A DNA stretch of 64,000 bases, taken from assembly GCA_015179045.1 (NCBI GenBank), contig WHUZ01000021.1:434001-498000 (forward strand). Direction: 5' to 3'. This DNA is from Kalaharituber pfeilii (lineage: Eukaryota > Ascomycota > Pezizomycetes > Pezizales > Pezizaceae). A program made the translations under genes and the position numbers. Under the pieces are notes generated by a model, which did no database searches, was not told the DNA's origin, and saw only the letters and a list, made by a program, of their open reading frames with translations. Positions within the stretch are counted from its first letter, which is position 1. Every line of letters begins with the position of its first letter. Of the stretch, positions 6,739-64,000 are shown piece by piece.

Positions 6739-9700
6739 ATGTCCGACCCACTATCCATAGCTGCATCAATCGCTGGCCTCGTTGCGATCTCAGGACAAAT
6801 TTTAAGTTTGCTGAAGGACCTCTATGATTTTCGGGCTCGAGCCAAGCAGGCGCCAGAATCCATCAAATGCCTAATGGATGAAATGAACGATATGAATGCC
6901 ATATTCTGTCAGGTTCAGCTGTTTATTGAGGGGAGAACCAAGATCCCAAACCAGAATGGATTGAAAATGTTGTCTATTCAGCACCTTCTTGCGACTTTGG
7001 CTGGATGTGTTTTGGTCACTACTAACCTGGACAAGTTTTTGAATGAAGTTCTGGGGGTTAGTGATCCTAGAAGTAGACAACCTCCAGAAAACAAAGTAGG
7101 CCTTTTCGAGAGGATTAAATGGGCACTGTGGAAGGAAGAAGAGGTTGTGGCCTTCATTGAGGACCTACAACGACATAAGCTAAGTTTGAACTTGATGTTA
7201 GGAATCATTCAATGGTAACTTGAAAGGCCTACTCTATTAACTTTGAGAGATTGAAAGAACTAATCTTTTGTACAGCCATACTGCAGCAGAGGCTTCTGAA
7301 AGCCTTGGGCAATTGCATGAAGCAGTTAGTCAGATTTTAGATTCCAACAATACGATTTCACATCAGTTGCGAGGCCTTGTCAGCCGGCACGAAGACCTTC
7401 TCAGTCGTCATGAAGAACTTGTCGGCCGTCATGAAGCTCCGAAAAGTGTAATCGAGTCTGCGACAGGTCATATCCATTCCCAGGCTGCAAAGATAGTACC
7501 CACAATAGATGATGTCAACACACCATTATCTACCATAAAAGAGGACCAGACCTCCAATGACAATGATGATGCTGCATCAATCAGAACTACAGCAACATCA
7601 CATAGCATATCCTTACGATCTATACGATCCATACGATTTAAACGACCATCATTTATAGATGAATTGAAAGGTTCAAGGCCCTACAAACGACTCCAGAAGC
7701 GGGGCGGCCTGTACAAGAATTCTGCCTCCACATTCTCTAGAAGTAGCTCTACAAGAGGGTGCAGCTGGTCGATGCTTTCGAGCATGAGCTTGGGTGATCT
7801 CTCAATTTCAGAAATCTCAGTACTTGAGCTACCTATTTGCCTTTCTGATATCTGGAACTCACAGCCCTATCAAGTTGAAGTTTCACTTCATTCAACTGCC
7901 GGTCAGCAGAGATTACGTCGACAACTGAAAGTGGAGTGGTCTTTATTGGGCCGCAAGTATATTGCTCGAACTTTACTCGCTCCAAGTTTAGGCACAGATA
8001 TAGAGAAGAGGGATTCCGAAGGCATGTCAAAACTAAATTCTGCAGCTGCAAATGGGCATGTTAGGATGGTAAAACTGCTGTTGGATGATGGCCGGATTGA
8101 CGTCAATATGGCCAACAACAATGGCTGGACACCACTGAACAATGCAGCTAACAATGGACACGACAAAGTTGTGGAGCTGCTACTGGCAGACAGCAGGGTT
8201 GATGTCAATATAGCTAACGAAAATGACTGGACACCACTGAACAGTGCAGCTCAAAATGGGCACGACAAGGTGGTGGAGCTGCTGCTGGCAGACACCAGGG
8301 TCGATGTCAATACGGCTAATGAAAATGGCTACACACCATTAAACAGCACAGCAGATGAAGGGCACGACAAGGTGGTGGAGCTGCTGCTGGCAGACAGCAG
8401 GGTTAATATTAATATGCCTGACAACGAAGGGTGGACACCACTAAACTGTGCAGCTAACAAAGGGCATGAGAAGGTGGTGGAGCTGCTGCTGGCAGACAGC
8501 AGGGTTGATGTTAATATGGCTAGCAAACAAGGTTCGACACCATTGAAAAGAGAAGCTATTAATTGGCGCAACAAGATGGTGGACCTGCTGCTGGCAGACA
8601 GCAGGCATGATGTCAATACGGCTAGCAAAGAAGGTTGGACACCATTGAGTGCTGCAGCTGGTAAGGGGCATGGGAAGGTGGTGGAGCTGCTCCTGGCAGA
8701 TAGCAGGGTTGATGTCAATACGGCTAGCAAAGAAGGTTGGACACCATTGAGTGCTGCAGCTGGTAACGGGCATGGGAAGGTGGTGGAGCTGCTGCTGGCA
8801 GACAACAGGGTTGACGTTAATATGGCTAGTGAAGGTTGGACACCATTGGGAAGTGCAGCTAGCAATGGGCATGACAAGGTGGTGGAGCTGCTACTGGCAG
8901 ACAGCAGGGTTGACGTTAATATGGCTAGCAAAGAAGGTTGGACACCATTGAGTGTTGCAGCTAACAACGGGTATGAAAAGGTGGTGGAGCTGCTGCTGGC
9001 AGACAGCAGGGTTGATATCAATACGGCTGGAAAAGAAGGTTGGACACCATTGAGTGCTGCAGCTGGTAACGGGCATGGGAAGGTGGTGGAGCTGCTGCTG
9101 GCAGACAGCAGGGTTGACGTTAATATGGCTAGTGAAGGTTGGACACCATTGGAAAGTGCAGCTAGCAATGGGCATGACAAGGTGGTGGAGCTGCTACTGG
9201 CAGACAGCAGGGTTGACGTTAATATGGCTAGCAAAGAAGGTTGGACACCATTGAGTGTTGCAGCTAACGACGGGTATGAAAATGTGGTGGAGCTGCTGCT
9301 GGCAGACAGCAGGGTTGATATCAATACGGCTGGCAAAGAAGGTTGGACACCATTGAGTGCTGCAGCTGGTTACGGGCATGGGAAGGTGGTGGAGCTGCTG
9401 CTGGCAGACAGCAGGGTTGATGTCAATACGGCTAGCAAAGAAGGTTGGACACCATTGAGTGCTGCAGCTGGTAACGGGCATGGGAAGGTGGTGGAGCTGC
9501 TGCTGGCAGACAACAGGGTTGACGTTAATATGGCTAGTGAAGGTTGGACATCATTGGGAAGTGCAGCTAGCAATGGGCATGACAAGGTGGTGGAGCTGCT
9601 GCTGGCAGACAGCAGGGTTGATGTCAATACGGCTGGCAAAGAAGGTTGGACACCATTGAGTGCTGCAGCTGGTAACGGGCATGGGAAGGTGGTGGGGCTG

Positions 9701-10642
9701 CTGCTGGCAGACAGCAGGGTTGACGTTAATATGGCTAGTGAAGGGTGGACACCACTAAACTGTGCAGCTAACAAAGGGCATGAGAAGGTGGTGGAGCTGC
9801 TGCTGGCAGACAGCAGGGTTGACGTTAATATGGCTAGCAAAGAAGGTTGGACACCATTGAGTGTTGCAGCTAACAACGGGTATGAAAATGTGGTGGAGCT
9901 GCTACTGGCAGACAGCAGGGTTGACGTTAATATGGCTAGCAAAGAAGGTTGGGCACCATTGAGTGTTGCAGCTAACAACGGGTATGAAAAGGTGGTGGAG
10001 CTGCTGCTGGCAGACAGCAGGGTTGATGTCAATACGGCTAGCAAAGAAGGTTGGACACCATTGAGTGCTGCAGCTGGTAACGGGCATGGGAAGGTGGTGG
10101 AGCTGCTGCTGGCAGACAACAGGGTTGACGTTAATATGACTAGTGAAGGTTGGACATCATTGGGAAGTGCAGCTAGCAATGGGCATGAAAAGGTGGTGGA
10201 GCTGCTGCTGGCAGACAGCAGAGTTGATGTCAATATGGCTAGTGAAGGTTGGACACCATTGAAAAGTGCAGCTAGCAATGGGCATGACAAGGTGGTGGAG
10301 CTGCTGCTGGCAGACAGCAGGGTTAATATTAATATGCCTGACAACGAAGGGTGGACACCACTAAACTGTGCAGCTAACAAAGGGCATGAGAAGGTGGTAG
10401 AGCTGCTGCTGGCAGACAGCAGGGTTGATGTCAATACGGCTAATAAAAATGGCTACACACCACTGAACAGCGCAGCTAACAATGGGCACGACAAGGTGGT
10501 AGAGCTGCTTCTCGCACACGACAAAATCGACGTAACCATTGCCAACGCTGATTCCAAGACTGCCCTGGATTTGGCCACTGACAATGGACATCACAAAATT
10601 GTGGCAATGTTACGCGCAAAGCTTGAAAATAACGAGTCTTAA
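6739..10642 (+). CDS. ANK gene 1: Helo-like N-terminal domain plus about 26 ankyrin repeats
   Basis: Two exons, 6739-7214 and 7276-10642, joined across a 61-bp GT..AG intron (7215-7275) in phase 2, give about 1280 residues; the splice makes 'IIQC' run into 'HTAAEASES'. Residues 1-158 match the fungal N-terminal domain found on STAND/NLR proteins (Helo-like; 'MSDPLSIAASIAGLVAISGQ' start, 'RIKWALWKEEE', 'HKLSLNLMLGIIQ'). A linker of about 250 residues follows, with an 'SRHEDL/SRHEEL/GRHEAP' repeat and an 'SIRSIRFKRPSF' basic motif. Ankyrin repeats run from about residue 407 to the end, mostly of the type 'GWTPLxxAAxxGHxKVVELL' in 33-34 residues. No NACHT or NB-ARC P-loop is visible. The last repeat ('SKTALDLATDNGHHKIVAML') is a conserved cap. 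Family knowledge suggests a receptor-like role in non-self recognition or programmed cell death; this is inference. It has the most repeats of the five paralogues. Confidence 0.85.
8719..10340 (+). repeat. Higher-order ankyrin repeat block in ANK gene 1
   Basis: Single ankyrin units are 99 or 102 bp. Here they are grouped: the 34+33+34-residue trio beginning near 8719 recurs at an offset of exactly 303 bp, and again at a further 405 bp (303+102), for example 'TATGGCTAGTGAAGG' at 8821, 9124 and 9529. This is the signature of repeated unequal exchange of multi-repeat blocks inside the exon. Confidence 0.85.
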
Positions 10643-13249
10643 CCGGGGCTTGTCTCTTATTTTTTCGCTTCATTTTCTATTGGCAAGAAAGTTGTGGAAC
10701 GGTGCCCTTTTTGTTGAGCTGATATATGTGCTTCGAGATAGGAGGGTTTGATTATTTTTTATTTTTTTATTTTATTTTATTTCATTTTATTTTATTTTTT
10801 ATTTTTATTTTTATTTTTTGTTGACATTTGATCTATGTCTTTCGTCTACGTATCAATTTTCTGTCACTGAAAGGTTGGTCTTCTTATATATATATCGATA
10901 GCATTGTTAGGTGGGGCTTTCATTTGAGTTGGTAGTTCGGGTAGCAGATTCCAACCTTGGCACTGCTTGACCTTCAAACCGGTAATAACATCATGTAAGT
11001 ACTCTATTTTACATCTTCTATTCATTCAGTTCCGAAACCACCCACATCCTTTTCTATACGCTTTTAAGAAACACAAATTTCACGCTCACCGTACTTATAT
11101 CGTGATTACATTTATCGGAGTTGTGTAGTAGTTCAAGTAGTTGAGTTCAAGGTAAGGAAAAGTTCAAAGCTGTTGCCGAACTATGGTACAGTCCGTAAAG
11201 CACATAATGGATATGGTGTTCTAGGGTACCTCGTAAGCAGGCAACTTAGGAAGCATACGTGGGAGAAGCCTCTATCTATAGCTGGTTCTTCATGCTGTGC
11301 AGACAATAGAAGTAAGTACTCAAACCTACATATTTTCATGCAGAATCCCCGGCGCTTTTTGAAATTGGAATTTTAGGTGAGTTCCGGGTAAAAATTACAA
11401 TCTCCAGAGAACAAGGTTTCGAATCGAACTTTTCATAAATAAACACAGATTATCGGGATTTTATGTACCGGAACTGGTGATGACTAGATAACTCCCACTA
11501 ACCTTGAAACAGCTGATACCATGCCAAATAGTTATTAGCTGGTACTCCCATTATATACTTAAAGTTGAGTTGCAAGACCCCCCACCTGTGACCAGATATT
11601 CGACCCCATTATCTCGGTCAAAATATCTGACCGGTACTCACACCTGGAGACCGAGTCGCGCTTAAAAATCCGGATAGGAAAAAAAGCCGAAATTGCTGCG
11701 TTTGAGTTCCCTAATGTTTTTGCAACCCCACATATATTCTGTGTCGAATAGATGTATATAGTCTGGTTGAGATGTAGGTATGGTGGCATGCCGGATACAT
11801 GGGACTGCTTGTACTTATATAACGTACCAAGAAGTTCGCCTGGCCTGTACTTTATTTGCATAGAAACTGCTGACAGGTAACACGCCACAAAGGTTGTCAA
11901 TTCTCTCAGGAGCCTTTGGTAAACTCAGCGGAGGCAATATTTAAAAAGGGGGTAGTTAGCACTTTCGCGAGGAAATTGTTAACATGAGGCTGTTTTTATC
12001 CATTTTTCAACTATTCACGCTGCTGATAAGACTATGTCTGTATTCAAGTACCCTCCCGAGCTAACGAAGTTAAGCGCGCCTTGCGGCCCCCTACCAATAC
12101 GCAAGCTAGAGGGTAAGCAAAATTAATTTACCTACCTGTTCATCCTGATACCCATCTGACCAATTTTATTCAATTAAAACAAAAAAAAAGGTATGGGATT
12201 ATAATTTTACTCGACCCACACAAGAATTTGTGTGTGAAACTAAGTATGCAGGAAAAGGAGTCTCGACACCAAGCCGGTACCGTGGGAGATCTTCTTCGTT
12301 GAAACGCTCTTTTTCACTGAGCTCAGGTTTGTCTTTTTTTATGCTATGCTCTGGGTTGCACCCATCATCTAATGTACAGGAATCTCCGCCCAATTCAACT
12401 CCTTCTGATTTTCGTAATCTGAATCCCCCCGGTCTTGCTTTCTTATTTCCGTACTCCTCAGTACTAAGCCAAGTTGCTCAAAGCCTGTGGATTATCCCAC
12501 CTAAGCTATTTACCTACATCAGTGGTAGTAGTCCTCCGGTGACTACCTCCCATCAGTCCGAGTCGAATTGAATTGATGAACGACATAGAGAGAAAAGACC
12601 TATATTCCTTTGATTCATAAAAATAACCCCCTGTGTGCCCGCTGCAGGAAACGAATCAACTGCATACCAGCAAAATCCCCGTGATATCTACCAGTTGCCT
12701 CTAAATGGGAATAGCACCCCATGCCAACTCATTGATAAAAGCTCAGTCAGACTTCCCTGTGCCAACTCTTGGTTCATCTGGATGCCCCATGCAAGAATCA
12801 ATCTCCCGTCTAGCATGGCTTGAGCGTGCTTCACACAAAAGATTAATCCTTCATACCCACAAGTCCACCCCTTGATATAACTGCTAGTCGCTTGTTTGTG
12901 ATAGGCAACACATCTCACTTTGGAATTGATGCCCAGCTCAGTCAGGCATTCCTCCGTCAACCTTATTATAGACCTGGTCTGTCAGAAGCCTCATGTACTC
13001 GCAAATTTAAGCCGTGCTCCAACATTTAAAGTTCACCAATCTCGCCTGGAATTGATGCTAGGCTTAGTCAGGTATTCCTCCGCTGACTATATTATTGATG
13101 TGATCCCTTCTGAAGTTCCAATGTACCCACTAATTGACTATAGGATAGCATCCATATGTAACATCTCGATGGGTATAAAGAGAGAGTGATATACTGCTAT
13201 AGTTTAAAAACAATGGATAAGAAAAGCATAAAGGAGTAGTCTGCGCACC
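10643..13249. other. 3' flank of ANK gene 1, no gene seen
   Basis: Conserved in order behind each ANK gene. It holds the TTTTA-rich tract and a 570-bp stretch (about 10970-11535) that looks almost identical to the unit 3 flank. It also holds two related sequences near 12930-12965 and 13050-13085 sharing 'TCAGTCAGG' and 'ATTCCTCCG'. Short ORFs on both strands are broken by indels or stops in at least one other unit, so none is called. Confidence 0.55.
10751..10819 (+). repeat. TTTTA-type pentanucleotide tract
   Basis: Imperfect TTTTA/TTTCA repeats about 110 bp after the stop codon. Equivalent tracts of different length follow ANK genes 2, 3 and 4, probably within or near the 3' UTR. Confidence 0.8.
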
Positions 13250-14636
13250 ATATGCCAGGAGGTGTTCAAATGCAAGGATGGCTGGACAAGATAGTTGGAC
13301 TGGGTGGTTACAGGAGCAGAGAAGCTACTGGAAGGGGTGTTGGAGTGGCCCCTAGAGAAGCTGCGTCTGGCACTACTTGAGTGATGGTTCGAGGAGCTGC
13401 TGGAGCAGTGGGTGCGAGATAACCCTACAGCTGCTGGAGGAAGGGTACAAATTTAAAGGCGGTTTCAGGGGGTGCAGTTCATAGGCGGTGGAGGGGTATA
13501 AGAACGTGCGGTTGAGGGTGCGAGAGGGATGCCGTTGCGGCTGCGGGAGGGCCGTTGAAGCCGGAGCGGTTGTCGGAAGGGTTGCGAAGCGCAATAGGAG
13601 ATAGGGGGGATATTGCGGTGCGACGCGGCGGTGGGATGCGACAGGGGGAAGGTGGGAGAAATTATGGGGAAGTAAAATAGACCGAGAGGGTGAGATCGTT
13701 TCAAAAGAAGGTGGGAGTTTTCTACTTCAAACTGGCCTATATCTTGGTGAAGTGGATGAGACATGCCACTGCTGCTGCTGGAGTGGGGTTATGAGGTTAT
13801 GCTGGAGCGGAGGGGGCTTGACGTGCGACGGGAGAGGGGGCGCGATTGCCGGTGGAGAAGATGGCGAGAGAGCATTTGAAGAGCGATATGGAGGGGAGAG
13901 AGGGCAAAAATGAAGAGGGCTGCAGTGAGAGACCGACACATGGTGCAGGTTTCCAGTCAAGCCCGTTACGTGTTGCATCCTCGCTCGAGCACTTCCAGAA
14001 ATGGAAAGCCCAAGTTTCCCACCTCACCAGCGTCAGCAGTGCACTTGTTACGGCTTTCTCACTACAACACCCCATCTGAACTTGATAGGACCAAGTGGTT
14101 GATCTGGCAGGTGTGATCAGAGGTTGCCATCCATGCGCAGTTGAGTAAATTCAAAACAGACCTCGCCACTGCTGCAGTCATTGCTAGTTCCGCACGGTAT
14201 AGGGACATAAAGCTGCTCCCACCCACACAATATCGCCGATTGGAAAGGCAAGCTATGATATAACATCGACCGGGACACCCTATTGCTAGTGTAGGCAATC
14301 CAAGAGTCCCTTGCATATGTAGACGATGATCAGGAAGCTAAGAAGGGTATTTGAGGCGTCACTGCAGTAACGGAAGCAGGGAGCGCAGTATGCGAGGCAG
14401 GAGAAGGGGGGTAGGGAATGAGTATTTGTACGTGGAAAACAAGGAGGGAGTGAGATTGTCGATACAAGGGACAGTCATCATATGGGGAGGAGCAGGTAGG
14501 AGACCATGAGGATGAGGTGTTGAGGAGGGTGTTGGAGGTAAGTAGGATGTCAGTAGAGGAGCAGGAGAGGAGGAGGAAGAGGGAGATGGAGGAGTGGGAG
14601 GAGTGGGAGGGGAGGATGGGGGATGGGGGGAAGTAG
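13250..14636 (+). pseudogene. Degenerate copy of the glycosyltransferase 3' end (unit 2)
   Basis: From about 13846 the DNA matches the parent gene from its 'EMAGEYLRNDMEGRE' region to the stop; the terminal TAG aligns at 14634-14636 within an almost unchanged purine-rich end. Frameshifts and stops (for example TGA after the 'LIWQV' frame near 14113) destroy the frame. The UIM-like 'QAIQESLAY' is still readable near 14295-14320. The 13250-13845 part is shared with the other pseudogene copies, but I could not align it to the parent; it includes a readable stretch of about 45 codons ('AEKLLEGVLEWPLEKL') broken by one TGA. Confidence 0.7.
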
Positions 14637-18080: not shown

Positions 18081-18322
18081 GCGGTGGTCATCAATTATCT
18101 ACAGTAAAGTAAATGGAACATTTGTACATTTCATATCCCTGTACGTGTAGCAATTTATGGCCGGCAATTGATGACCGGTCCAAAATGCAATAAGCTAAGG
18201 CTTGTACTCTGTATCCGTAATTGTAGTCCCATTCACCCCTACCCTGCATATCAACACAACTACCTCGTATAAGCCAAAAAGCGTCAATACATAAGAAAAT
18301 AGATGCTGAAATCGATGTTTTG

Positions 18323-18575: not shown

Positions 18576-18732
18576 GTGCGGTGTGGTGCGGTGTGGGGTC
18601 GCGTTGAGTGGGGGCAAATCTAAAGTAAAGTAAATGTTTTTCCAAAAGTAACGGGACTATTTCGTGCTGTAGATTTTTCAGAAATGTACTGTGATAGTGT
18701 ACCTTACCTTACATTTCAGGGCGGAACATAGC

Positions 18733-21416: not shown

Positions 21417-24139
21417 ATGCCCGACCCACTATCCATAGCTGCATCAATCGCTGGCCTCGTTGCGATCTCAGGACAAATTTTAAGTTTGCTGAAGGACCTC
21501 TATGATTTTCGGGCTCGAGCCAAGCAGGCGCCAGAATCCATCAAATGCCTAATGGCCGAAATAGAAGATATGAATGCCATATTCTACCAGGTTCAGCTGT
21601 TTATTGAGGGGAGAACCAGGATCCCAAACCAGAATGGATTGAGAATGTTGTCTATTCAGCACCTTCTTGCAACTTTGACTGGATGTGTTTTAGTCACTTC
21701 TAGCCTGGATAAGTTTTTGAATGAAGTTCTGGGGGTTGGTGATCCCAGAAGCATACAACCTCCAGCAGACAAAGTAGGCCTTTTCGAGAGAATTAAATGG
21801 GCACTGTGGAAGGAAGAAGAGGTTGTGGTCTTTATTGAGGACCTGCAACGACATAAGCTAAGTTTGAACTTGATGTTAGGAATCATTCAATGGTAACTTG
21901 AAAGGCCTACTCTATCAACTTTCTTGAGAGATTGAAAGAACTAATCTTTTTGTACAGCCATACTGCAGCAGAGGCTTCTGAAAGCGTTGGGAAATTGCAT
22001 GAAGCAGTTAGTCAAATATTAGATTCCAATAATGCACTCTCAAATCAGTTACGAGGACTTATCAGCCGGCAAGAAGACCTTCTCAGTCGTCATGAAGAAC
22101 TTGTCGGCCATCATGAAGCTCCGAAAAGCGTAATCGAGTCTGCGACAGGTCATATCCATTCCCAGGCTGCAAAGATAGTACCCACAATAGATGATGTCAA
22201 CACACCATTATCCACAATACAAGATGACCAGACTTCCAATGACAATGATGATGCTGCATCAGTCAAAACTACAGCATCATCACATAGCATATCATCCTTA
22301 CGATCCATACGATCCATACGATTTAAACGACCATCATTCATAGATGAATTGAAAGATTCAAGGCCCTACAAGCGACTCCAGAAGCGGAGTGGCATGAGCG
22401 ATGATTCTGCATCCACATTCTCTAGAAATAGCTCGATAAGAGGGTGTAGCTGGTCGATGCTTTCAAGCATGAGCTTAGGTGATCTCTCGATTTCGGAAAT
22501 CTCAGTGCTTGAGCTGCCCATTTGCTTATCGGATCTCTGGGACGCACAGCCATATCAAGTTAAAGCACCGGTTCATTCAGCTGCTAGTTATCACAGATCA
22601 CGCCGGGCGCCAATGCCAAGGTTGCTTTCTTTTAGGTCCATACATCATGCTATTCGCAATGGGGATGAATATGCTGTACGAGCTCTACTCACTTTAGGAG
22701 CAAATGTGGAGAAGAGGAATTCAAATGGCTGGACACCACTAATTAGTGCAGCTTGCTATGGGCATGACAAGCTGGTAGAGCTGCTGCTGGCAGACAGCAG
22801 GGTTGATGTTAACATGGCTAGCAACGGTGGTTTGACACCATTGAATAGTGCAGCTGGCAAAGGGTATGAGAAGGTGGTGGAGCTGCTACTGGCAGACAGC
22901 AGAGTTGATGTCAATATGGCCACCGAAAATGGCAGGACACCACTGAACAGCGCAGCTAACAATGGGCATGACAAGGTGGTGGAGCTGCTGCTGGCAGACA
23001 GCAGAGTTGATGTCAATATGGCCACCAAAAATGGCTGGACACCACTGAATTGCGCAGCAGATGAAGGGCACAACAAGGTGGTGGAGCTGCTGCTGGCAGA
23101 CAGCAGAGTTGATGTCAATGCGGCTCAACAAGAGAACTGGACACCACTGAACAGAGCAGCTAACAATGGGCATGACAAGGTGGTGGAGCTGCTGCTGGCA
23201 GACAGCAGAGTTGATGTCAATGCGGCTCAACAAGAGAACTGGACACCACTGAACAGAGCAGCTAACAATGGGCACGACAAGGTGGTGGAGCTGCTGCTGG
23301 CAGACAGCAGAGTTGATGTCAATGCGGCTCAACAAGAGAACTGGACACCACTAAACAGAGCAGCTAACAGTGGGCATGACAAGGTGGTGGAGCTGCTGCT
23401 GGCAGACACCAGGGTCGATGTCAATACGGCTAGCAAAGAAGGTTGGACATCATTGATTGCTGCAGCTGGTAACGGGCATGGGAAGGTGGTGGAGCTGCTG
23501 CTGGCAGACAGCAGGGTTGATGTTAACATGGCTAGCAACGATGATTTGACACCATTGAATAGTGCAGCTGGCAAAGGGTATGCGAAGGTGGTGGAGCTGC
23601 TACTGGCAGACAGCAGGGTTGATGTCAATATGCCTGAGAACCGCGGGTGGACACCACTGAATGGTGCAGTTCGCAATGGACATAGTAAAGTGGTAGAGCT
23701 GCTGCTGGCAGATAGCAGGGTTGATGTCAATATGGCCGCAGAAGGTTGGAGACCATTGAATAGTGCAGCTTACTTTGGGCACAACAAGGTGGTGGAGCTG
23801 CTGCTGGCAGATGCTAGGATTGATGTTAATATGGTTAACAAAAATGGCTCGTCACCACTAAACAGTGCAGCTAACCAAGGGCACAACAAGGTGGTGGAGC
23901 TGCTGCTGGCAGATGGCAGAGTTGATGTTAATATGGCTAGCAACAGTGGTTATACACCGCTCGATAGTGCAGCTTTAAAAGGGCACGATAAGGTGGTAGA
24001 GCTGCTTCTCGCACACGACAAAATCGACGTAACCATTGCCAACGCTGCTTCCAAGACTGCCCTGGATTTGGCCACTGAGAAGGGACATCACAAAATTGTG
24101 GCAATGTTACGCGCAAAGCTTGAAAATAACGAGTCTTAA
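21417..24139 (+). CDS. ANK gene 2: Helo-like N-terminal domain plus about 15 ankyrin repeats
   Basis: Exons 21417-21892 and 21958-24139 are separated by a 65-bp GT..AG intron in phase 2 (about 885 residues). Exon 1 differs from gene 1 at only a few residues (start 'MPDPLSIAAS'). The linker ends differently from genes 1, 3 and 4: after 'CLSDLWDAQPYQV' comes a distinct segment with 'RSIHHAIRNGDEYAVRALL' and 'LGANVEKRNS', which reads as a different first ankyrin repeat starting near residue 385. Three adjacent repeats starting 'AAQQENWTPLNRAAN' (about 23119-23424) are near-identical 102-bp copies. The C-terminal cap 'SKTALDLATEKGHHKIVAML' is shared. No ATPase domain is visible. The role is inferred, as for gene 1. 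Confidence 0.85.
23119..23424 (+). repeat. Near-perfect 102-bp triplicate in ANK gene 2
   Basis: Copies start at about 23119, 23221 and 23323 and differ at only a few bases, pointing to very recent repeat expansion within the exon. Confidence 0.85.
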
Positions 24140-30943: not shown

Positions 30944-33609
30944 ATGTCCGATCCGCTATCCATAGCCGCATCCATCACTGGTCTCATTGCAATCTCAGCA
31001 AAGATTATAAGTTTGCTGAAGGACCTCTATGATTATGGGGCTCGAGCCAAGCAGGCACCGGAATCCATCAACTTCCTGATGGATGAAATGCAAGATATGA
31101 ATGCCGTATTCTGTCAGGTTCAGCTGTTTGTTGATGGGACAACTAAAATTCCAAACAAAAGTGGATTGAAAATGTTGTCTATTCAGCACCTTGTTGCAAC
31201 TTTGAGTGGATGTGTTTTGGTTGCTTCCAATCTGGACAAGTATCTGAGTGCGGTCATCGGGATTAGTGATCCTAGGAGCATGCAACCTCCAACAAAAAAA
31301 ACAAGCATTTTATTCGAGAGGATTAAATGGGCACTGTGGAAGGAAGCAGAAGTTGCAGACTTTATTGAACACCTGCAAAAGCACAAACTGAGTTTGAACT
31401 TAATGTTAGGGATAATTCAATGGTAACATGAAAGGCCTACTCTATTAACTTTATTGGGGATGCAGAAAAACTGATCTCTTTACATAGCCATACTACAGCA
31501 GAAGCTTCTGAAAGCCTTGGGAAATTGCACGAAGCAGTTAGTCAGATATTAGATTCCAATCACACGATATCAAATCAGTTGCGAGGACTTTTCAGCCGCC
31601 ACGAACCTCCAATAAGCAATGTAGTTCAATCTGCGACAGTTCATACCCATTCCCAGGCTGCAAAGATAGTACCCACAATAGATGATGTCAACACACCATT
31701 ATCTGGCATAAAAGAGGACCAGACCTCCAACGACAATAATGATGCTGCATCAATCAGAACTACAGCAACATCATATAGTATATCCTTACGATCTATACGA
31801 TCCATACGATTTAAACGACCATCATTTATAAATGAATTGAAAGATTCAAGGCCCTACAAACAGCTCCAGAAGTGGGGCAGCCTGGACAACGATTCTGCCT
31901 CCGCATTCTCTAGAAGTAGCTCTACAAGAGGGTGCAGCTGGTCGATGCTTTCGAGCGTGAGCTTGGGTGATCTCTCGATTTCAGAAATTTCAGTACTTGA
32001 GCTACCTATTTGCCTTTCTGATATCTGGGACTCACAGCCCTATCAAGTTGAAGTTTCACTTCATTCAACTGCCGGTCAGCAGAGATTACATCGACAACCG
32101 AAAGTGAAGTGGTCTTTATTGGGCCGCAAGTATATTACTCGAACTTTACTAGCTGCAAGTTTAGGCACAGATAGAGAAAAGAGGGATTCCGAAGGCATGT
32201 CAAAACTAAATTCTGCAGCTGCAAATGGGCATTTTAGGATGGTTAAACTGCTGTTGGATGATGGCCGGATTGACGTCAACATGGCCAACAGCTATGGCTG
32301 GACACCACTGAACAATGCAGCTAACAATGGACACGACAAGGTTGTGGAGCTGCTACTAGCAGACAGCAGAGTTGATGTCAATATAGCTAACGAAAATGGC
32401 TGGACACCACTGAACAGCGCAGCTAACAATGGGCACGACAAGGTGGTGGAGCTGCTGCTGGCAGACAGCAGGGTTGATGTCAATGCGGCTCAACAAGAGA
32501 ACTGGACACCACTGAACAGTGCAGCTAACAAAGGGCATGACAAGGTGGTGGAGCTGCTGCTGGCGGACAGCAGGGTTGATGTCAATATGGCCGCCGAATA
32601 TGGCATAACACCACTGAATTTTGCAGCTTTATTTGGACATGACAAGGTGGTGGAGCTGCTGCTGGCGGACAGCAGGGTTGATGTCAATATGTCCGCCGAA
32701 CATGGCATAACACCACTGAATTGTGCAGCTTTCGAGGGGCATGACAAGGTGGTGGAGCTGCTGCTGGCGGACAGCAGGGTTGACATCAATGCAGCTCAAC
32801 AAGGGAACTGGACACCACTGAACCGTGCAGCAAATAAAGGGCACAACAAGGTGGTGAAGCTGCTGCTGGCGGACAGCAGGGTTGATGTCAATATGGCCGC
32901 CGAATATGGCATAACACCACTGAATTGTGCAGCTTTATTTGGACATGACAAGGTGGTGGAGCTGCTGCTGGCAGACAGCAGAGTTGATGTCAATGCGGCT
33001 CAACAAGAGAACTTGTCACCACTGAACAGTGCAGCTAAAAATGGGCACGACAAGGTGGTGGAGCTGCTGCTGGCGGACAGCAGGGTTGATGTCAATATGG
33101 CCGCCGAATATGGCATAACACCACTGAATTGTGCAGCTTTATGTGGACATGACAAGGTGGTGGAGCTGCTGCTGGCGGACAGCAGGGTTGATGTCAATAT
33201 GGCCGCCGAACATTGCATAACACCACTGAATTGTGCAGCTTGCAAGGGGCACGACAAGGTGGTGGAGCTGCTGCTGGCAGACAGCAGAGTTGATGTCAAT
33301 ATGGCTAGCAAAATTGGCTATACACCGCTCAATAGTGCAGCTTTAAGAGGGCATGACAAGGTGGTGGAGCTGCTGCTGGCAGACAACAGAGTTGATGTCA
33401 ATATAGCTAGCAAAGAAGGTTGGACACCATTGAATAGCGCAGCTAGCAAAGGGTACGACAAGGTGGTAGAGCTGCTTCTCGCACACGACAAAATCGACGT
33501 AACCATTGCCAACGCTGATTCCAAGACTGCCCTGGATTTGGCCACTGACAATGGACATCACAACATTGTGACGATGTTACGCGCAAAGCTTGAAAATAAC
33601 AACTCTTAA
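30944..33609 (+). CDS. ANK gene 3: Helo-like N-terminal domain plus about 14 ankyrin repeats
   Basis: Exons 30944-31422 and 31488-33609 with a 65-bp GT..AG intron (about 866 residues). The ATG at 30944 is chosen because it aligns with the other four genes; the frame is open upstream to 30827. Exon 1 is the most diverged of the set ('ITGLIAISAKIISLLKDLYD', 'FVDGTTKIPNKSG', one extra codon at 'PTKKTSILFE'), while exon 2 is close to gene 1. The linker lacks most of the 'RHEEL' repeat. Repeats begin near residue 395 with 'GMSKLNSAAANGH' and alternate between 'AAEYGITPLNCAALFGHDK' and 'AAQQENWTPLN' types. The cap is conserved ('SKTALDLATDNGHHNIV'). No ATPase domain is visible. Confidence 0.85.
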
Positions 33610-44414: not shown

Positions 44415-45280
44415 GTTGGCATTGGGCATTACAGCTTGAGAATAGAGCAGGAAATCGAAGTCGCCTCCGTTTACCACAAAGAGCCTATTATCGCTATCGT
44501 TTACACTTTCGAAATACTGAGCCTGAGACTTTATTTCGAGCGCAACGATTATTTCAGCAATATATTGTTGATGCATGGGCAGTATGCGATCAAAATAAAC
44601 TATTATGGCTCCGTAATAATCAGAGAGCAATTCGAGCAGATGTGTATAATGGCTTAACGGATGCTTTAGGAAGGCAAGATATGGATACAAGGATGTTAGG
44701 GCATCGTATTATTCTACCAAGTAGTTTTACTGGTGGGGATCGTTATATGCAACAGTTGTTCCAAGATTCGATGGCTATTGTTCGTCATTTCGGTCGTCCT
44801 ACGCTTTTTATTACCTTTACAGCTAATCCGAAGTGGAAAGAGATTACACAAGAGCTATTACCTACACAAACTGCTATAGACCGTCCAGACTTGGTTGCAA
44901 GAGTTTTTCATCTAAAGCAACAACAGTTACTGTCTGAAATCAAGCATCAACATATTTTTGGACGTTGTATTGGTTGGGTATGGACAATTGAATATCAAAA
45001 ACGGGGATTACCACATATGCATCTCTTAGTTTTCCTACATAAGGAAGATCATTTCATATCTGCAGATCAGATTAATGAAATAATTTCGGCAGAGATTCCC
45101 ACAAAAGATACACCTACCAATACGGAACTTTGGAATATAGTTACATCAACTATGATCCATGGACCATGTGGAATACATAATCCTAATGCTCCTTGCATGA
45201 CTGCAAAGTATGAAAACGGTCCGAAAACATGCTCCAAAAAAATATCCACATTCATTTCAGGAGGAAACAGTTATTCGTGA
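44415..45280 (+). pseudogene. Helitron Rep (HUH nuclease) region, frameshifted at the end
   Basis: Open from the intron acceptor through 'RPTLFITFTANPKWKEI' and the HUH metal-binding motif 'GLPHMHLLVFL' (near 45006-45038). One extra A in a run of seven (45236-45242) throws the frame off: the intended continuation 'CSKKYPHSFQEETVIREDG' lies in the frame of the following ORF, and the ORF itself ends out of frame at 45280. The ORF starting at ATG 44642 is an internal start and not the gene start. Confidence 0.8.
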
Positions 45281-47795
45281 AGATGGATACCCTTTATATA
45301 GGCGACAAAATAATGGCACAACTTTTTCAGTACCATTATCAGGTGAACAACGGGTTACAATTGATAATCAGTGGATTGTACCATATAATCCATATTTATC
45401 TTGGCGTTATAAGGCACATATTAATGTGGAGGTATGTGCTACAGTCAAAGCAGTTAAGTACATCCATAAGTATATCTATAAAGGGTCAGACCGAACAACA
45501 TTACAGCTCGATACGGAAGATGACGAAATTAAACGATACCTGCAAGGACGTTATATTGGCCCAACGGAAGCGATATGGCGCCTTTTCGAGTACGATATGC
45601 ACGAAGAATCCCCACCGGTCATACATTTAGCAATACACCTCCCTGGTGAGCAACCAGTATACTTTACGGAGAATGCAACAGCAGAAACCTTGGCAAACCA
45701 ATTAAGTACTAGCTGTACAACATTAATGGGCTATTTTCAAGCTAATCAAGATATGCCAAATGCCCGACAATACCTTTATCAGGAGTTTCCATCACATTTT
45801 GTATGGAATCAACCTTTACGGAAATGGACACCACGACAACGAGGCATTGCAATTGGCCGTATCTATCACTGCAATCCTTTTATGGGTGAAAAGTACTATT
45901 TACGCCTATTATTAACTGTTGTGCGAGGTGCAAAAAGCTTCGAGGAATTACGCACTGTCCGTAATATTCAATATCCAACCTTTCGAGAGGCCTGTCAGGC
46001 ATTAGGACTTCTGGAGGATGATAATGAATGGGTGGAATGTTTTACAGAGGCATCTCTATTTGGAAACGGAGGATCGTTACGTACATTATTTGCAACAGCT
46101 CTTCTTTATGGGAATGTTACAGATCCAAAAGCTCTATGGGACCGTTTTTGCAACCATATCTGTGATGATTTGATGTTTTTTCTAAGTGAAAACTCGCATC
46201 TACTTCCACCAGATCTACAAGACTCTTTTCACTTAGATTATGGTCTATATCTGATCAATCAGATGTTGCTACAGCAAGGACGCTGTTTAACAAATTTCCA
46301 AATACCACTTCCGGTTCTGCAATGGAATACATTCAGTGAAAATTCCATACTTGCAGACGAATTACAGTATAATACAGAGCAAGAGGCAACATTATATGAG
46401 CAACGGTATGAAATGCTAAATTCGGACCAGAAACATGCATTTGATACAATTATATATGCAATAGAGAATGGTTTTCCTGCCCATTTTTTCTTACAGGGAC
46501 CTGCAGGGACCGGAAAAACATTTCTCTATAATGTACTATGCAACTACCTCCGTTCTAAGGGTAAAATAGTACTTTGCGTGGCTTCATCTGGAATTGCAGC
46601 TCAATTACTTCCTGGCGGACGTACTTCACATTCCCGTTTCAAAATTCCGTTAGTGTTAAACGAGTTTTCAACATGCTCCATCAAGCGCGATTCTCCTTTA
46701 GCAGCATTATTGAGAGAAACAAGCCTTATTATTTGGGATGAGGTACCTATGCAGAATAAACGCTGCTTTGAAGCAGTTTCTCGAACACTTAATGATATTT
46801 GTGGTACTTCTGATAATGCTTTATTCGGAAATATTCCAATTATTACTGGTGGGGATTTTGCGCAAATTTTACCAGTGGTTCCGAAGGGTAATAGGGCTGC
46901 AATTGTTAATGCATGTCTTCAACGTTCCGTTTTATGGCCGCATTTTCAACAACTCTTCTTAACTAAGAATATGCGAGTCCGTGAAGGTACAAATAATGCA
47001 GAATTCAGTTCTTGGTTAGGTCAACTATCCTATAATCCTGAATTGCGAGGTCACATTTCATTACCTTCATATATTGAGGCTGAACGGTCAATTTCGGAGT
47101 TCTGCAACCATGTATTTCCGAAAAACCTTTTGGACAGTGCACCTTTAGACCTTAACACCTTCAATGGACGAGCAATCTTGACTTTACGGAATGATACAGT
47201 CACCGAATTTAATGAACTTCTTATTCAACATATACCAGGTGATATGCGGACCTACTTTGCAGTTGACAACATTGATCAAAGTGAAACGGACATCGATACA
47301 TATCCTGCAGAATATTTACAGACGTTAAATCTAGCTGGATTACCTCCATCCCAACTAAATCTCAAAGTTGGTGCACCAATAATTCTATTACGGAATCTAG
47401 ATCCTAAGCAGGGCCTATGTAACGGAACTCGCATGACTATTACTCAACTCGGACATCGTTGTATCGAAGCGCAAATCCTTAATGGTGACTTTACAGGTCA
47501 ACGTCGCCTATTACCTCGCATCAAACTCTCAACAACAGAAGGAGAACTTCCATTTATACTGATGCGAAAGCAATTTCCTATCCGTTTATGTTTTGCAATG
47601 ACAGTTAATAAGGCGCAAGGGCAGTCATTAGATGTTGTTGGAGTAGATTTACGTATGCCTGCATTTACACATGGCCAGTTTTATGTTGCAATGTCTCGCA
47701 TTACAGATGTAAATAATTTGATGGTTTTATGGTCTGAAAACGGACCCATGGTTACAGAAAATATTGTATATCCTGAAGTATTACTACAACCATAG
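45210..47795 (+). CDS. Helitron Rep tyrosine region and PIF1-like helicase (3' part of a broken gene)
   Basis: A long uninterrupted frame, but its ATG lies inside the Rep domain, so it is the 3' portion of the original protein. It starts with 'KKYPHSFQEETVIREDGYPL', then the catalytic tyrosine region 'KAVKYIHKYIYKGSD' (near 45450-45490). The SF1 helicase of the PIF1/RecD type follows: Walker A 'GPAGTGKTFLYN' (near 46498-46533), 'IIWDEVPM' (near 46728), 'GGDFAQILPVV' (near 46851) and C-terminal motifs 'VNKAQGQSLDVVGVD' and 'HGQFYVAMSR' (near 47604-47700). In rolling-circle transposition Rep nicks and joins the ends and the helicase unwinds the strand. The helicase part looks intact; the full-length protein is not encoded without correcting upstream breaks. 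Confidence 0.85.
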   Translation: MKTVRKHAPKKYPHSFQEETVIREDGYPLYRRQNNGTTFSVPLSGEQRVTIDNQWIVPYNPYLSWRYKAHINVEVCATVKAVKYIHKYIYKGSDRTTLQLDTEDDEIKRYLQGRYIGPTEAIWRLFEYDMHEESPPVIHLAIHLPGEQPVYFTENATAETLANQLSTSCTTLMGYFQANQDMPNARQYLYQEFPSHFVWNQPLRKWTPRQRGIAIGRIYHCNPFMGEKYYLRLLLTVVRGAKSFEELRTVRNIQYPTFREACQALGLLEDDNEWVECFTEASLFGNGGSLRTLFATALLYGNVTDPKALWDRFCNHICDDLMFFLSENSHLLPPDLQDSFHLDYGLYLINQMLLQQGRCLTNFQIPLPVLQWNTFSENSILADELQYNTEQEATLYEQRYEMLNSDQKHAFDTIIYAIENGFPAHFFLQGPAGTGKTFLYNVLCNYLRSKGKIVLCVASSGIAAQLLPGGRTSHSRFKIPLVLNEFSTCSIKRDSPLAALLRETSLIIWDEVPMQNKRCFEAVSRTLNDICGTSDNALFGNIPIITGGDFAQILPVVPKGNRAAIVNACLQRSVLWPHFQQLFLTKNMRVREGTNNAEFSSWLGQLSYNPELRGHISLPSYIEAERSISEFCNHVFPKNLLDSAPLDLNTFNGRAILTLRNDTVTEFNELLIQHIPGDMRTYFAVDNIDQSETDIDTYPAEYLQTLNLAGLPPSQLNLKVGAPIILLRNLDPKQGLCNGTRMTITQLGHRCIEAQILNGDFTGQRRLLPRIKLSTTEGELPFILMRKQFPIRLCFAMTVNKAQGQSLDVVGVDLRMPAFTHGQFYVAMSRITDVNNLMVLWSENGPMVTENIVYPEVLLQP

Positions 47796-48339: not shown

Positions 48340-48343
48340 GTGC

Positions 48344-51938: not shown

Positions 51939-53923
51939 ATGTCCGACCCACTATCTATAGCTGCATCAATCGCTGGCCTTGTTGCGATCTCAGGGCAAAT
52001 TTTAAGTTTGCTGAAGGACCTCTATGATTTTCGGGCTCGAGCCAAGCAGGCGCCAGAATCCATCAAATGCCTAATGGATGAAATGAATGATATGAATGCC
52101 ATATTCTGTCAGGTTCAGCTGTTTATTCAGGGGAGAACCAAGATCCCAAACCAGAATGGATTGAGAATGTTGTCTATTCAGCACCTTCTTGCGACTTTGA
52201 CTGGATGTGTTTTAGTCACTTCTAACCTGGATAAGTTTTTGAATGAAGTTCTGGGGGTTAGTGATCCTAGAAGCATACAACCTCCAGAAAACAAAGTAGG
52301 CCTTTTCGAGAGGATTAAATGGGCACTGTGGAAGGAAGAAGAGGTTGTGGTCTTCATTGAGGACCTGCAACGACATAAGCTAAGTTTGAACTTGATGTTA
52401 GGAATCATTCAATGGTAATTTGAAAGGCCTACTCTGTCAACTCTGCGAGATTGAAAGAACTAATCCTTTTGTACAGCCATACTGCAGCAGAGGCTTCTGA
52501 AAGCCTTGGGCAATTGCATGAAGCAGTTAGTCAGATTTTAGATTCCAACAATATGATTTCACATCAGTTGCGAGGCCTTATCAGCCGGCACGAAGACCTT
52601 CTCAGTCGTCATGAAGAACTTGTCGGCCGTCATGAAGCTCCGAAAAGCGTAATCGAGTCTGCGATAGGTCATATCCATTCCCAGGCTGCAAAGATAGTAC
52701 CCACAATAGATGATGTCAACACACCATTATCCACAATACAAGATGACCAGACCTCCAACGACAATGATGATGCTGCACCAATCAGAACTACAGCAACATC
52801 ACATAGTATATCCTTACAATCTATACGATCCATACGATTTAAACGACCATCATTTATAAATGAATTGAAAGATTCAAGGCCCTACAAACGACTTCAGAAG
52901 CGGGGCGGCCTGGACAACGATTCTGCATCCACATTCTCTAGAAATAGCTCGATAAGAGGGTGTAGCTGGTCGATGTTTTCAAGCATGAGCTTGGGTGAAC
53001 TCTCGATTTCAGAAATCTCAGTGGTTGAGCTACCTATTTGCCTTTCTGATCTCTGGAACTCACTGCCCTATCAAGTTGAAGTTTCACTTCATTCAACTGC
53101 CAGTCAGCAGAGATTACATCAACAACCGACAGTGAAGTGGTCTTTATTGGGCAGCAAGTATATTCCTCAAACTTTACTCACACCAAGTTTAGGCACAGAT
53201 ATAGAGAAGAAGGATTCCGGAGGCTTCTCAAAATTAAATGCTGCAGCTGCAAATGGGCACGTTAGGATGGTAAAACTGCTGTTGAATGATGGCCGGATTG
53301 ACATCAATATGGCCAACAACAATGGCTGGACACCACTGAACAGTGCAGCTAAAAGTGGGCACGACAAGGTTGTGGAGCTGCTACTAGCAGACAGTAGAGT
53401 TGATGTCAATATAGCTAACAAAAATGGCTGGACACCACTGAACAGCGCAGCAGATGAAGGGCACGACAAGGTGGTGGAGCTGCTACTGGCAGACAGCAGA
53501 GTTGATGTCAATATGGCCATCGAAAATGGCTGGACAGCACTGAACAGCGCAGTTAGCAATGGGCACGACAAGGTGGTGAAGCTGCTGCTGGCAGACACCA
53601 GGGTCGATGTCAATACGGCTAGAAAAACTGGTTGGACACCATTGAAAATTGCAGCTTTCAAAGGGCATAACAAGGTGGTGGAGCTGTTGCTGGCAGACAC
53701 CAGGGTCGATGTTAATACGGCTGGCAACCTTGGCTATACACCGCTCATTAGTGCAGCTTTAAGTGGGTATGACAAGGTGGTAGAGCTGCTTCTCGCACAC
53801 GACAAAATCGACGTAACCATTGCCAACGCTGCTTCCGAAACTGCCCTGGATTTGGCCACTGTGAGAGGACATCCCAAAATTGTCGCAATGTTACGCGCAA
53901 AGCTTGAGAATACCAAGTCTTAA
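51939..53923 (+). CDS. ANK gene 4: Helo-like N-terminal domain plus about 7 ankyrin repeats
   Basis: Exons 51939-52414 and 52477-53923 with a 62-bp GT..AG intron in phase 2 (about 640 residues, half the size of gene 1). The N-terminal domain and linker are nearly the same as in gene 1, including the full 'SRHEDL/SRHEEL/GRHEAP' repeat. Ankyrin repeats start near residue 407 ('GFSKLNAAAANGHVRMVKLL') and are more varied than in gene 1. The cap reads 'SETALDLATVRGHPKIVAML'. The shortest complete repeat array of the family, either contracted or ancestral. No ATPase domain is visible. Confidence 0.85.
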
Positions 53924-54029
53924 CCGGTGCTCGTCTCTTATTTTTCGCTTCATTTTCTATTGGCAAGAAAGTTGTGAAACAGTGCCCTTTTTGTTGAGCT
54001 TATATATGTGCTTCGAGATGAGAGGTTTG

Positions 54030-54057
54030 ATTTTATTTTATTTTTATTTTTTTTTTT
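54030..54057 (+). repeat. Short TTTTA-type tract
   Basis: The shortest of the four tracts following the ANK genes. Confidence 0.7.
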
Positions 54058-56221: not shown

Positions 56222-56258
56222 TCCTCGCCATAGCCTGTTAGGCGGCATGCGAGTAATG

Positions 56259-56286
<28 letters not shown>
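56222..56286 (+). mobile_element. Mini-retroposon copy C (37 nt body + poly(A))
   Basis: A 37-nt body (56222-56258, containing CGCCATAGCCTGTTAGGCGG) and about 28 A residues, flanked by a 12-bp duplication TATAGACCTGGT (56210-56221 and 56287-56298). The sequence is uninterrupted in units 1, 2 and 3. Confidence 0.8.
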
Positions 56287-56290
<4 letters not shown>

Positions 56291-56570
56291 GACCTGGTCT
56301 GTCAGAAGCCTCATGTACCCGCAAATTTAAGCCATGCTCCAACATTTAAAGTTCGCCCATCTCGCTTGGAATTGATGCCTGACTCAGTCAGGTATTCCTC
56401 CGCTAACCATATTATTGATGTGATCCCTTCTTGAAGTTCCAATGTACCCACTACTTGACTATAGGATGGCATCCATATGTAACATTTTGATGGGTATAAA
56501 GAGAGTTGTAAACTGCGATATTCTTAGAAACAATAGATAAGAAAAGCATGTGGGGAGTAGTTAGCCTACC

Positions 56571-57945
56571 ATATGACAGGAGCTGTTGAAGTGCCAGGAT
56601 GGCTGGAAAGGATAGTTGGACTGGATGGTGGTAGAGGAGCAGAGAAGCTACTGGAAGGGATGTTGGAGTAGCCCCTGGAGAAGCTGCATCTGGCACTACT
56701 TGAGTGATGGTTCGGGGAGCTGCTGGAGCAGTGGGTGCGAGATAACTCTGCAGCTGCTGGAGGAAGGGTACAAATTTAAAGGCGGTTTCAGGGGGTGCAG
56801 TTCATAGGCGGTGGAGGGGTATAAGAACGTGCGGTTGAGGGTGCGAGAGGGATGCCGTTGCGGCTGCGGGAGGGGCCATTGAAGTCGGAGCAGTTGTCGG
56901 AAGGGTTGCGAAGCGCATTAGGAGATAGGGGGGATATTGCGGTGCGACGCGGCGGTGGGATGCGACAGGGGGAAGGTGGGAGAAATTATGGGGCAGTAAA
57001 ATAGACCAAGATGGTGAGATCGTTTCAAAAGAAGGTGGGAGTTTTCTACTTCAAACTGGCCTATATCTTGGTGAAGTGGATGAGACATGCCACTGCTGCT
57101 GCTGGAGTGGGGGTATGAGGTTATGCTGGAGCGGAGGGGCGCTTGACGTGCGACGGGAGAGGGGGCGCGATTGCCGGTGGAGGAGATGGCGAGAGAGCAT
57201 TTGAAGAGCGATACGGAGGGGAGAGAGGGCAAAAATGAAGAGGGCTGCAGTGAGAGACCGACGCATGGTGCAGGTTTCCAGTCAAGCCCATCACGTGTTG
57301 CATCCTCGCTCGAGCACTAGTTTCCCACCTCACCAGCGTCAGCAGTGCGCTTGTTACGGCTTTCTCACTACAACACCCCATCGGAACTTGATAGGACCAA
57401 GTGGTTGATCTGGCAGGTGTGATCAGAGGTTGCCACCCATTCGCAGTTGAGCAAATTCAAAACAGACCTCGCCACTGCTGTAGTCATTGCTAGTTCCGCA
57501 CGGTATAGGGACATAAAGCTGCTCCCACCCACACAATATCACCGATCGGAAAGGCAAGCTATGATATGACATCGACCGGGACGGCCTATTGCTAGTGCAG
57601 GCAATCCAAGAGTCCCTTGCATATGTAGACGATGATCAGGAAGCTAAGAAGGGTATTTGAGGCGTCACTGCAGCAACGGAAGCAGGGAGCGCAGTATGCG
57701 AGGCAGGAGAAGGGGGGTAGGGAATGAGTATTTGTACGTGGAAAACAAGGAGGGAGTGAGATTGTCGATACGAGGGACAGTCATCATATGGGGAGGAGCA
57801 GGTGGGAGACCATGAGGATGAGGTGTTGAGGAGGGTGTTGGAGGCGAGCAGGGTGTTGGCGGAGGAGGAGGAGGAGAGGAGGAGGAAGAGGGAGATGGAG
57901 GAGTGGGAGCAGTGGGAGGGGAGGGTGGGGGATGGGGGGAAGTAG
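56571..57945 (+). pseudogene. Degenerate copy of the glycosyltransferase 3' end (unit 5)
   Basis: Very close to the unit 4 copy, with the shared deletion near 57318. The aligned TAG is at 57943-57945. Near 57840 it keeps 'GGAGGCGAGCAGGGTGTTGG', closer to the parent gene (about 1786) than units 2-4 are, which suggests exchange with the parent or better retention. Confidence 0.7.
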
Positions 57946-60495: not shown

Positions 60496-60542
<47 letters not shown>

Positions 60543-62824: not shown

Positions 62825-64000
62825 ATGTCCGACCCACTATCCATAGCTGCATCAATCGCTGGTCTCGTTGCGATCTCAGGACAAATTTTAAGTTTGCTGA
62901 AGGACCTCTATGATTTTCGGGCTCGAGCCAAGCAGGCGCCAGAATCCATCAAATGCCTAATGGATGAAATGAACGATATGAATGCCATATTCTATCAGGT
63001 TCAGCTGTTTATTGAGGGGAGAACCAGGATCCCAAACCAGAATGGATTGAAAATGTTGTCTATTCAGCACCTTCTTGCGACTTTGACTGGATGTGTTTTG
63101 GTCACTTCTAACCTGGATAAGTTTTTGAATGAAGTTCTGGGGGTTAGTGATCCTAGAAGCAGACAACCTCCAGAAAACAAAGTAGGCCTTTTCGAGAGGA
63201 TTAAATGGGCACTATGGAAGGAAGAAGAGGTTGTGGTCTTCATTGAGGACCTGCAACGACATAAGCTAAGTTTGAACTTGATGTTAGGAATCATTCAATG
63301 GTAATTTGAAAGGCCTACTCTATCGACTTTGAGAGATTGAAAGAACTAATCTTTTTGTACAGCCATACTGCAGCAGAGGCTTCTGAAAGCCTTGGGCAAT
63401 TGCATGAAGCAGTTAATCAGATTTTAGATTCCAATAATACGATTTCACATCAGTTGCGAGGCCTTATCAGCCGGCACGAAGACCTTCTCAGTCGTCATGA
63501 AGAAATTGTTGGCCATCATGAAGCTCCGAAAAGCGTAATCGAGTCTGCGATAGGTTATATCCATTCCCAGGCTACAAAGATAGTACCTACAATAGATGAT
63601 GTCAACACACCATTATCCACAATACAAGATGACCAGACTTCCAATGACAATGATGATGCTGCATCAATCAAAACTACAGCATCATCATACAGCATATTAT
63701 CCTTACGATCTATACGATCCATAGGATTCAAACGACCATCATTTATAAATGAATTGAAAAATTCAAGGCCCTACAAACGACTCCAGAAGTGGGGCGGCCT
63801 GGACAACGATTCTGCCTCCACATTCTCTAGAAGTAGCTCGATAAGAGGGTGTAGCTGGTCGATGTTTTCAAGCATGAGCTTGGGTGAGCTCTCGATTTCG
63901 GAAATGTCAGTGCTTGAGCTACCTATTTGCCTATCCGATCTCTGGGACTCACAGCCCTATCAAGTTGAAGTTTCACTTCATTCAACTACCAGTCAGCAGA
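62825..64000 (+). CDS. ANK gene 5, 5' part: Helo-like N-terminal domain and linker (runs off window)
   Basis: Exon 1 is 62825-63300; a 62-bp GT..AG intron (63301-63362) precedes exon 2, which I read by eye as open to the window end. The N-terminal domain is nearly that of gene 1. The linker keeps 'SRHEDL/SRHEEI/GHHEAP' and the serine-rich 'GCSWSMFSSMSLGELSIS' segment, and ends within 'SQPYQVEVSLHSTTSQQ'. Ankyrin repeats are expected just beyond the window, so their number is unknown. Confidence 0.8.

Follow-up and report, generated by a model that had tools for sequence, protein, structure and literature searches.

The closest described counterparts of the genes reported here are fungal NOD-like receptors (NLRs; NOD, nucleotide-binding and oligomerization domain) with the HeLo-like/NACHT/ankyrin architecture of Dyrka et al. 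(2014, PMC4986451). Excerpts of that paper describe positive selection at the inner helices and hairpin loops of a Podospora ankyrin NLR, and excerpts of PMC12881547 describe membrane targeting by HeLo and HeLo-like domains and a dependence of PLP-1 and NWD2 activity on the P-loop. We analyzed a window of 64,000 nucleotides (the whole stretch of DNA under study), which forms part of contig C124 in the 78-Mb genome of the desert truffle Kalaharituber pfeilii (Pezizaceae), and found in it a tandem array of five genes. These genes share with the HeLo-like/NACHT/ankyrin NLRs a homologous N-terminal domain (N-domain) and an ankyrin C-terminus, together with contact-position variation, differing repeat numbers and clustering, but they have no detectable NACHT or NB-ARC domain and carry a conserved motif, here termed the WS motif. 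Another Pezizales truffle, Tuber melanosporum, likewise has an expanded ankyrin receptor-like family (nank, NACHT-ANK; cited in the excerpts of PMC4986451), which differs in having a NACHT domain and alternative splicing of microexons. As far as their excerpts go, PMC12258605 gathers candidates by the nucleotide-binding domain and PMC4986451 annotates NACHT and NB-ARC members of the signal transduction ATPases with numerous domains (STANDs); surveys that start from this domain would therefore leave NOD-less genes of this sort uncounted.

Five ankyrin-repeat genes without a detectable ATPase domain

Open reading frame (ORF) and splice models read from the DNA confirmed the five co-directional paralogues reported in the initial annotation. 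All lie on the + strand: gene 1 at 6739..10642, gene 2 at 21417..24139, gene 3 at 30944..33609, gene 4 at 51939..53923 and the first part of gene 5 at 62825..64000, with 1220 further bases running past the window to a stop at 65220 (window numbering, adjoining contig sequence). The predicted products are 1280, 885, 866, 640 and 777 amino acids (aa), respectively, and all follow one plan, with an exon 1 of about 159 codons, one intron, a linker of about 240 residues and 34-residue ankyrin repeats. The single modelled intron is 61–65 bp long and interrupts codon 159 (codon 160 in gene 3), and exon 2 is free of stops across the linker and the repeats. In gene 1, exon 1 (6739–7214) encodes residues 1–158 and part of 159, a predicted HeLo-like helical-bundle N-domain; it is followed by the intron (7215–7275) and exon 2 (7276–10642). 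The linker (7277..8044) comprises a helix, a Ser-rich stretch and the WS motif and extends into the beginning of the first repeat, and a conserved element within it (7649..7870, residues 284–357) reads SRPYKR ... CSWSMLSSMSLGDLSISEISVLELPICLSDIWN. A less regular first ankyrin unit starts at about 8000, and the ankyrin region proper (8096..10639) consists of about 25 units of 33–34 residues, supported by the ORF/splice model, 25 repeat anchors and a period of 102 in Tandem Repeats Finder (TRF).

No Walker A sequence was present in six array genes (the five genes of the window plus the next gene along) or, across 30 family loci, in the 1.5 kb that follows exon 1. Pfam scans detected no NACHT, NB-ARC or other NTPase domain above cut-off in gene 4 or in the linkers of genes 1 and 2, and no family of any kind above threshold in these two linkers; the gene 1 linker gave a noise match only (E 0.31), and the sub-threshold linker matches included P5-ATPase, a cation transporter family (13.1 bits against 22.7). 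The AlphaFold model of one paralogue, P0001 (mean predicted local distance difference test score (pLDDT) 66.6, 47-row alignment), contained no NTPase fold in its linker. It places a helix at residues 165–212, mostly pLDDT <50 over about 213–318, short helices at 319–343 and ankyrin helices from 427, with the conserved linker motif at low confidence. Both predicted features, the long helix that follows the bundle and the disorder across most of the linker, are of low confidence. The linker of about 230–250 residues without a P-loop, as initially described, was borne out, and a hidden NACHT or NB-ARC domain was found neither by the Pfam scan nor in the P0001 model.

The five genes are real as an array but form only a slice of a larger family. 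Gene 1 exon 1 had 101 matches in the genome, 65 of them near complete (E up to 6.4e-55) and distributed over 16 contigs (22 on C318, 14 on C124, 8 on C82, 4 on C360 and the others elsewhere); the 36 matches dropped were fragments, stop-bearing copies and a distant class. Locus L031 on C318 contains four 40-residue probes of the K. pfeilii protein P0015 without a mismatch; P0001 was not found among the loci searched. A linker lay downstream on the same strand in all 65 copies, at a median gap of 87 bp (range 58–590; 76 of 106 linker matches used). Among the matches listed, none of the 65 had an NPHP3_N (NACHT-type) domain within 5 kb downstream (coordinates for 150 of 178 matches, from 150 of 578 candidates, so that NPHP3_N counts are lower bounds), and the closest NACHT match to any copy on either strand, among those listed (98 of 98 used), was 8.3 kb away. 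As a positive control in the same genome, NPHP3_N was located 630–855 bp downstream in at least 20 of 51 weaker, distant N-domain matches (hand-picked matches with E up to 0.01 that lie in neither the family nor its linker; some may be chance). The contrast between 20/51 and 0/65 indicates that the search was able to detect the ATPase where present. Three of the distant loci were read (L059–L061), all within the 51 and outside the 20; yet L059 does carry an NPHP3_N domain, in the order N-domain (PF17111, 48.8 bits), NPHP3_N (52.9 bits), ankyrin repeats.

Homology of the N-terminal domain to that of HeLo-like NLRs

A Pfam scan of exon 1 did return the families expected from the Helo-like STAND N-domain proposed initially, but both below their cut-offs. 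Over exon 1 of genes 1 and 3 and the whole of gene 4, PF17111 (PigL_N) scored 17.9–19.6 bits against 27.2 and PF14479 (HeLo) 15.5–18.1 bits against 23.2, with 17.9 and 18.1 bits, respectively, for gene 1 exon 1. Precomputed PF17111 annotation was present on 8 of 77 relatives from a protein search that scored 7997 candidates; a companion search scored 7998. Profile comparison made the relationship clear: the family N-domain profile aligned with the NACHT-type N-domain of L059 at an hhalign E of 7.6e-15 and 27% identity. In the DNA, the first-intron donor TG|GTAA falls at the same codon and phase in the family and in the NACHT-type gene. At the level of sequence, these comparisons establish the family N-domain as a homologue of the N-domain of HeLo-like NLRs. 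AlphaFold (AF2) predicts it to be a helical bundle (mean pLDDT 80; helices 4–33, 40–63, 72–77, 80–105, 117–129 and 133–158); structure searches did not distinguish NLR bundles from other helical bundles.

Ankyrin variation is concentrated at presumed ligand-contact positions

The long ankyrin C-terminus of the initial description was confirmed by an Ank_2 match in gene 4 (E 4e-59) and by repeat anchors in six genes, and repeat numbers differ between paralogues (25, 13, 13 and 6 anchors in genes 1–4). The repeats are not near-identical, as had been claimed: mean nucleotide identity between units is 81.1% within a gene and 78.4% between genes, a within-gene value reached in 0 of 1000 shuffles, and TRF gave 80–83% at period 102. 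Gene 3 and the sixth gene share four identical units.

To quantify variation, we compared 60 units from the six genes, representing 54 distinct DNA sequences; all were exactly 34 residues long, and 33-residue units were excluded. Eleven of the 34 positions are hypervariable (entropy >=1.2 bits): 5, 7, 8, 9, 11, 15, 16, 19, 20, 23 and 33. The proportion of nonsynonymous differences (pN) was 0.405 at these eleven and 0.053 elsewhere, with an overall synonymous value (pS) of 0.318 and an overall pN/pS of 0.57. When the Gly at unit position 10 is set to canonical position 4, canonical positions 2, 3, 5, 13 and 14 all fall within the hypervariable set; these belong to the positions varied in designed ankyrin proteins. 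The variation in these sequences is therefore concentrated at the canonical, presumed ligand-contact positions. The pattern is similar to that of the Podospora ankyrin NLR in the excerpts of PMC4986451.

A possible mode of action without an in-protein nucleotide switch

The reading that we prefer, at about even odds, is of a receptor-like protein family that has expanded in a lineage-specific manner, has no nucleotide-binding domain and has its HeLo-like domain clustered by ligand. The ankyrin surface would bind, as its ligand, a variable protein from a non-self hypha or from another organism; ligand binding or multivalency would gather the N-domains; and the clustered HeLo-like bundle might act on membranes or recruit an effector in the manner of HeLo, MLKL and RPW8-type bundles. 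The WS motif could serve as a fixed docking or auto-inhibitory element, and an ATP-driven NOD within the protein would not be needed. With no switch in the chain, either ligand clustering suffices or a partner works in trans. We infer clustering, cell death and non-self recognition from anatomy and variation, whereas the receptor plan without an in-protein nucleotide switch, suggested initially, is supported as anatomy because no ATPase was found.

Of the features that define a STAND protein, the family has C-terminal superstructure-forming repeats and an NLR-homologous N-domain, and no central NACHT or NB-ARC was found. Since that defining NOD was not found, the members are not NLRs by membership, although they may work like NLRs. 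A NOD-less family whose N-domain is homologous to that of NLRs and whose repeats vary in the same style suggests that receptor logic may be attainable without an in-protein ATPase, and poses the question of whether fungal receptors of this type can function without an ATPase switch. NOD-bearing and NOD-less genes in one genome provide a natural comparator.

The WS motif is shared with G-protein-domain fusions

The linker was initially described as a serine-rich replacement for the ATPase. That a plain linker took the place of an ATPase is not supported, since the linker contains the most conserved element of the protein, the WS motif (SRxY...WSxLS..SLxxLSxxxVxxLPI), which is common to non-NLR fusions. 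Compared with gene 1, the 30 family loci were 79% identical in exon 1, 57% in residues 191–283 and 64% in the first ankyrin unit, but 85% in residues 311–357 and 96% in residues 331–340. The ratio of nonsynonymous to synonymous substitution rates (dN/dS; 28–30 loci, pairs with 0.05<dS<1) was 0.20 in exon 1, 0.59 in the mid-linker and 0.15 in the motif core (311–357). The motif is thus the slowest-evolving part of the protein. A hidden Markov model (HMM) of the motif was trained on the six array genes and 15 ankyrin relatives (P0008 and P0012, 2 of 17, did not fit the extraction pattern). All 30 family loci, including some used in training, scored 88–126 bits, and none of the three NACHT-type loci read exceeded 4.7 bits. 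Of 20 non-ankyrin relatives, 19 scored 19.0–79.8 bits, compared with at most 6.2 bits in 2000 shuffled pieces (230-residue stretches, whereas real proteins were scored whole). One further K. pfeilii protein, P0014, has the family N-domain followed by repeated SRPY half-motifs, without the WS core and without ankyrin; it is possibly an internally duplicated or decayed family member.

Module fusions of other ascomycetes share with the array genes the N-domain, the following stretch and the WS motif, but have a Ras/Rho-like, RhoGAP or G-alpha domain rather than ankyrin at the C-terminus. Of the 20 relatives, eight end in a Ras-family domain (motif in 7/8), one in RhoGAP (1/1), five in G-alpha (5/5) and six in no assigned domain (6/6, one match covering the first half of the motif only). 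The Ras, RhoGAP or G-alpha domain was above the Pfam cut-off in 7/7 scanned of the 14 fusions, and the remaining seven rest on precomputed annotation. The Ras-family fusions are P0013 (Fusarium lateritium), P0016, P0017, P0019, P0020 (Apodospora peruviana), P0027, P0050 and P0055, and the RhoGAP fusion is P0054 (Fusarium austroafricanum). The Cdc42 name of P0050 and the sequences judged by eye suggest that the Ras-family fusions are of Rho type. All eight lack a canonical P-loop (GxxxxGK[ST]), so these domains may be pseudo-GTPases; the P-loop is present in four of the five G-alpha fusions (P0083, P0084, P0085 and P0086, but not P0057).

The alternative that survives best, although we regard it as rather unlikely, is that the HeLo-like domain and the WS motif form a G-protein signalling module, whose ankyrin-bearing version in Pezizomycetes would detect a ligand and use the motif to dock a separate G protein. 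The strong motif scores in the non-ankyrin relatives, the recurrent fusion of the module to Ras/Rho-like, RhoGAP and G-alpha domains and the slow evolution of the motif all speak for it. However, the 20 relatives were found with linker-including queries, so that 19/20 is not an unbiased frequency, and the P-loop counts (0/8 and 4/5) imply that some of the fused domains may not switch. Two module queries of the K. pfeilii genome found no such fusion, the stretches after unassigned matches being unread. In its widest form, which seems to us equally doubtful, this alternative describes a second, NOD-independent class of fungal receptors: the HeLo-like and WS-motif module would be wired to G-protein signalling, the desert-truffle ankyrin form would be a recognition repertoire of tens of genes parallel to the canonical NLRs, and if a nucleotide switch took part, a G protein would supply it in trans. 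The WS motif suggests a HeLo-like/G-protein link and offers a handle for finding such receptors in other fungi.

Origin of the family and remaining alternatives

Under a second alternative, which we judge quite improbable, the family arose from NLRs by loss of the NOD, its members either serving full NLRs as helpers or decoys or being their decayed remnants. NACHT-type sequences are numerous in the same genome (at least 98 NACHT and at least 178 NPHP3_N matches, E up to 0.001, the two sets overlapping), and the N-domain homology and common intron donor link the family to a NACHT-type gene. The lower rows of the 101 exon-1 matches include stop-bearing and partial copies, so family copies are also being lost. 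Against decay, the family is under purifying selection, and 64 of the 65 near-complete first exons are free of stops over the matched stretch; the motif, not found in the three NACHT-type loci, is common to non-NLR fusions.

In an N-domain tree of 23 rows (midpoint root for drawing only), the eight ankyrin-linked rows group on one side of a branch (support 86/77) together with a Tricharina first exon, and a second branch (82/81) sets off the rows with Ras/Rho-like, G-alpha or RhoGAP domains; both have modest support. The single NLR row, of NACHT type, sits on a very long branch, so that its placement is unsure. The ankyrin form occurs in sampled Pezizomycetes (Kalaharituber, Tirmania and Terfezia among others), and Wilcoxina P0004 has the module and the motif but no ankyrin match. 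Because the motif is common to non-ankyrin relatives and reaches at most 4.7 bits in the NACHT-type loci, the family appears to be a lineage of its own, independent of NACHT, and not a set of NLRs whose NOD was lost. The simplest reading of these sequences is an old NACHT-independent module with few C-terminal exchanges that was joined to ankyrin in Pezizomycetes.

The array proteins also resemble the HET-S/HELLP effectors, in architecture only, in that a HeLo-class N-domain is followed by a linker and a short motif; those effectors are activated by a separate NLR, whereas the Kalaharituber family has ankyrin in the same chain. We consider it very unlikely that the WS motif serves inside the protein as an amyloid or higher-order assembly signal that templates clustering, with a role like that of HET-s, PP/RHIM or sigma. 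The order of HeLo-like domain, low-confidence linker and short conserved hydrophobic motif would fit, as would the beta-proneness of the motif, judged by eye, and known fungal amyloid motifs co-occur with HeLo-like domains (excerpts of PMC9815663). On the other hand, the WS motif is internal rather than terminal and is common to GTPase-type fusions, and a Pfam scan of two linkers (E up to 5) returned no amyloid-motif family, such short motifs being poorly detected. That the proteins are non-immune ankyrin scaffolds or adaptors for development or symbiosis, with no part in non-self recognition, is highly improbable, since hypervariable contacts, repeat-number differences, clustering and broken copies fit birth-and-death recognition families.

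Growth of the array and neighboring sequences

The upstream region and first part of genes 1, 2, 4 and 5 share stretches of 2.3–3.2 kb at 91–95% identity, which indicates that segmental tandem duplication enlarged the array. Gene 3 is the most divergent of the five (about 79% over this region, with an exon 1 78% identical to that of gene 1). Between genes 3 and 4 lies a Helitron-type element (44642–47795, +), whose ORFs encode a Helitron_like_N domain (E 2.4e-50) and a PIF1 helicase domain (E 3e-73). A second sequence is present in four array copies that are 89–93% identical (12946–14634, 26001–27592, 35863–37527 and 56287–57943). Its - strand ORFs reach 178 aa without a Pfam match, and all of its 22 genome matches are on C124, several with stops. 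At the start of the window, a 614-codon ORF (47–1891, +) has a ubiquitin-interaction motif match (26.3 bits) and lies in GC-rich sequence (0.61), and bases 1510–1889 within it are 76% similar to the repeated companion sequence.

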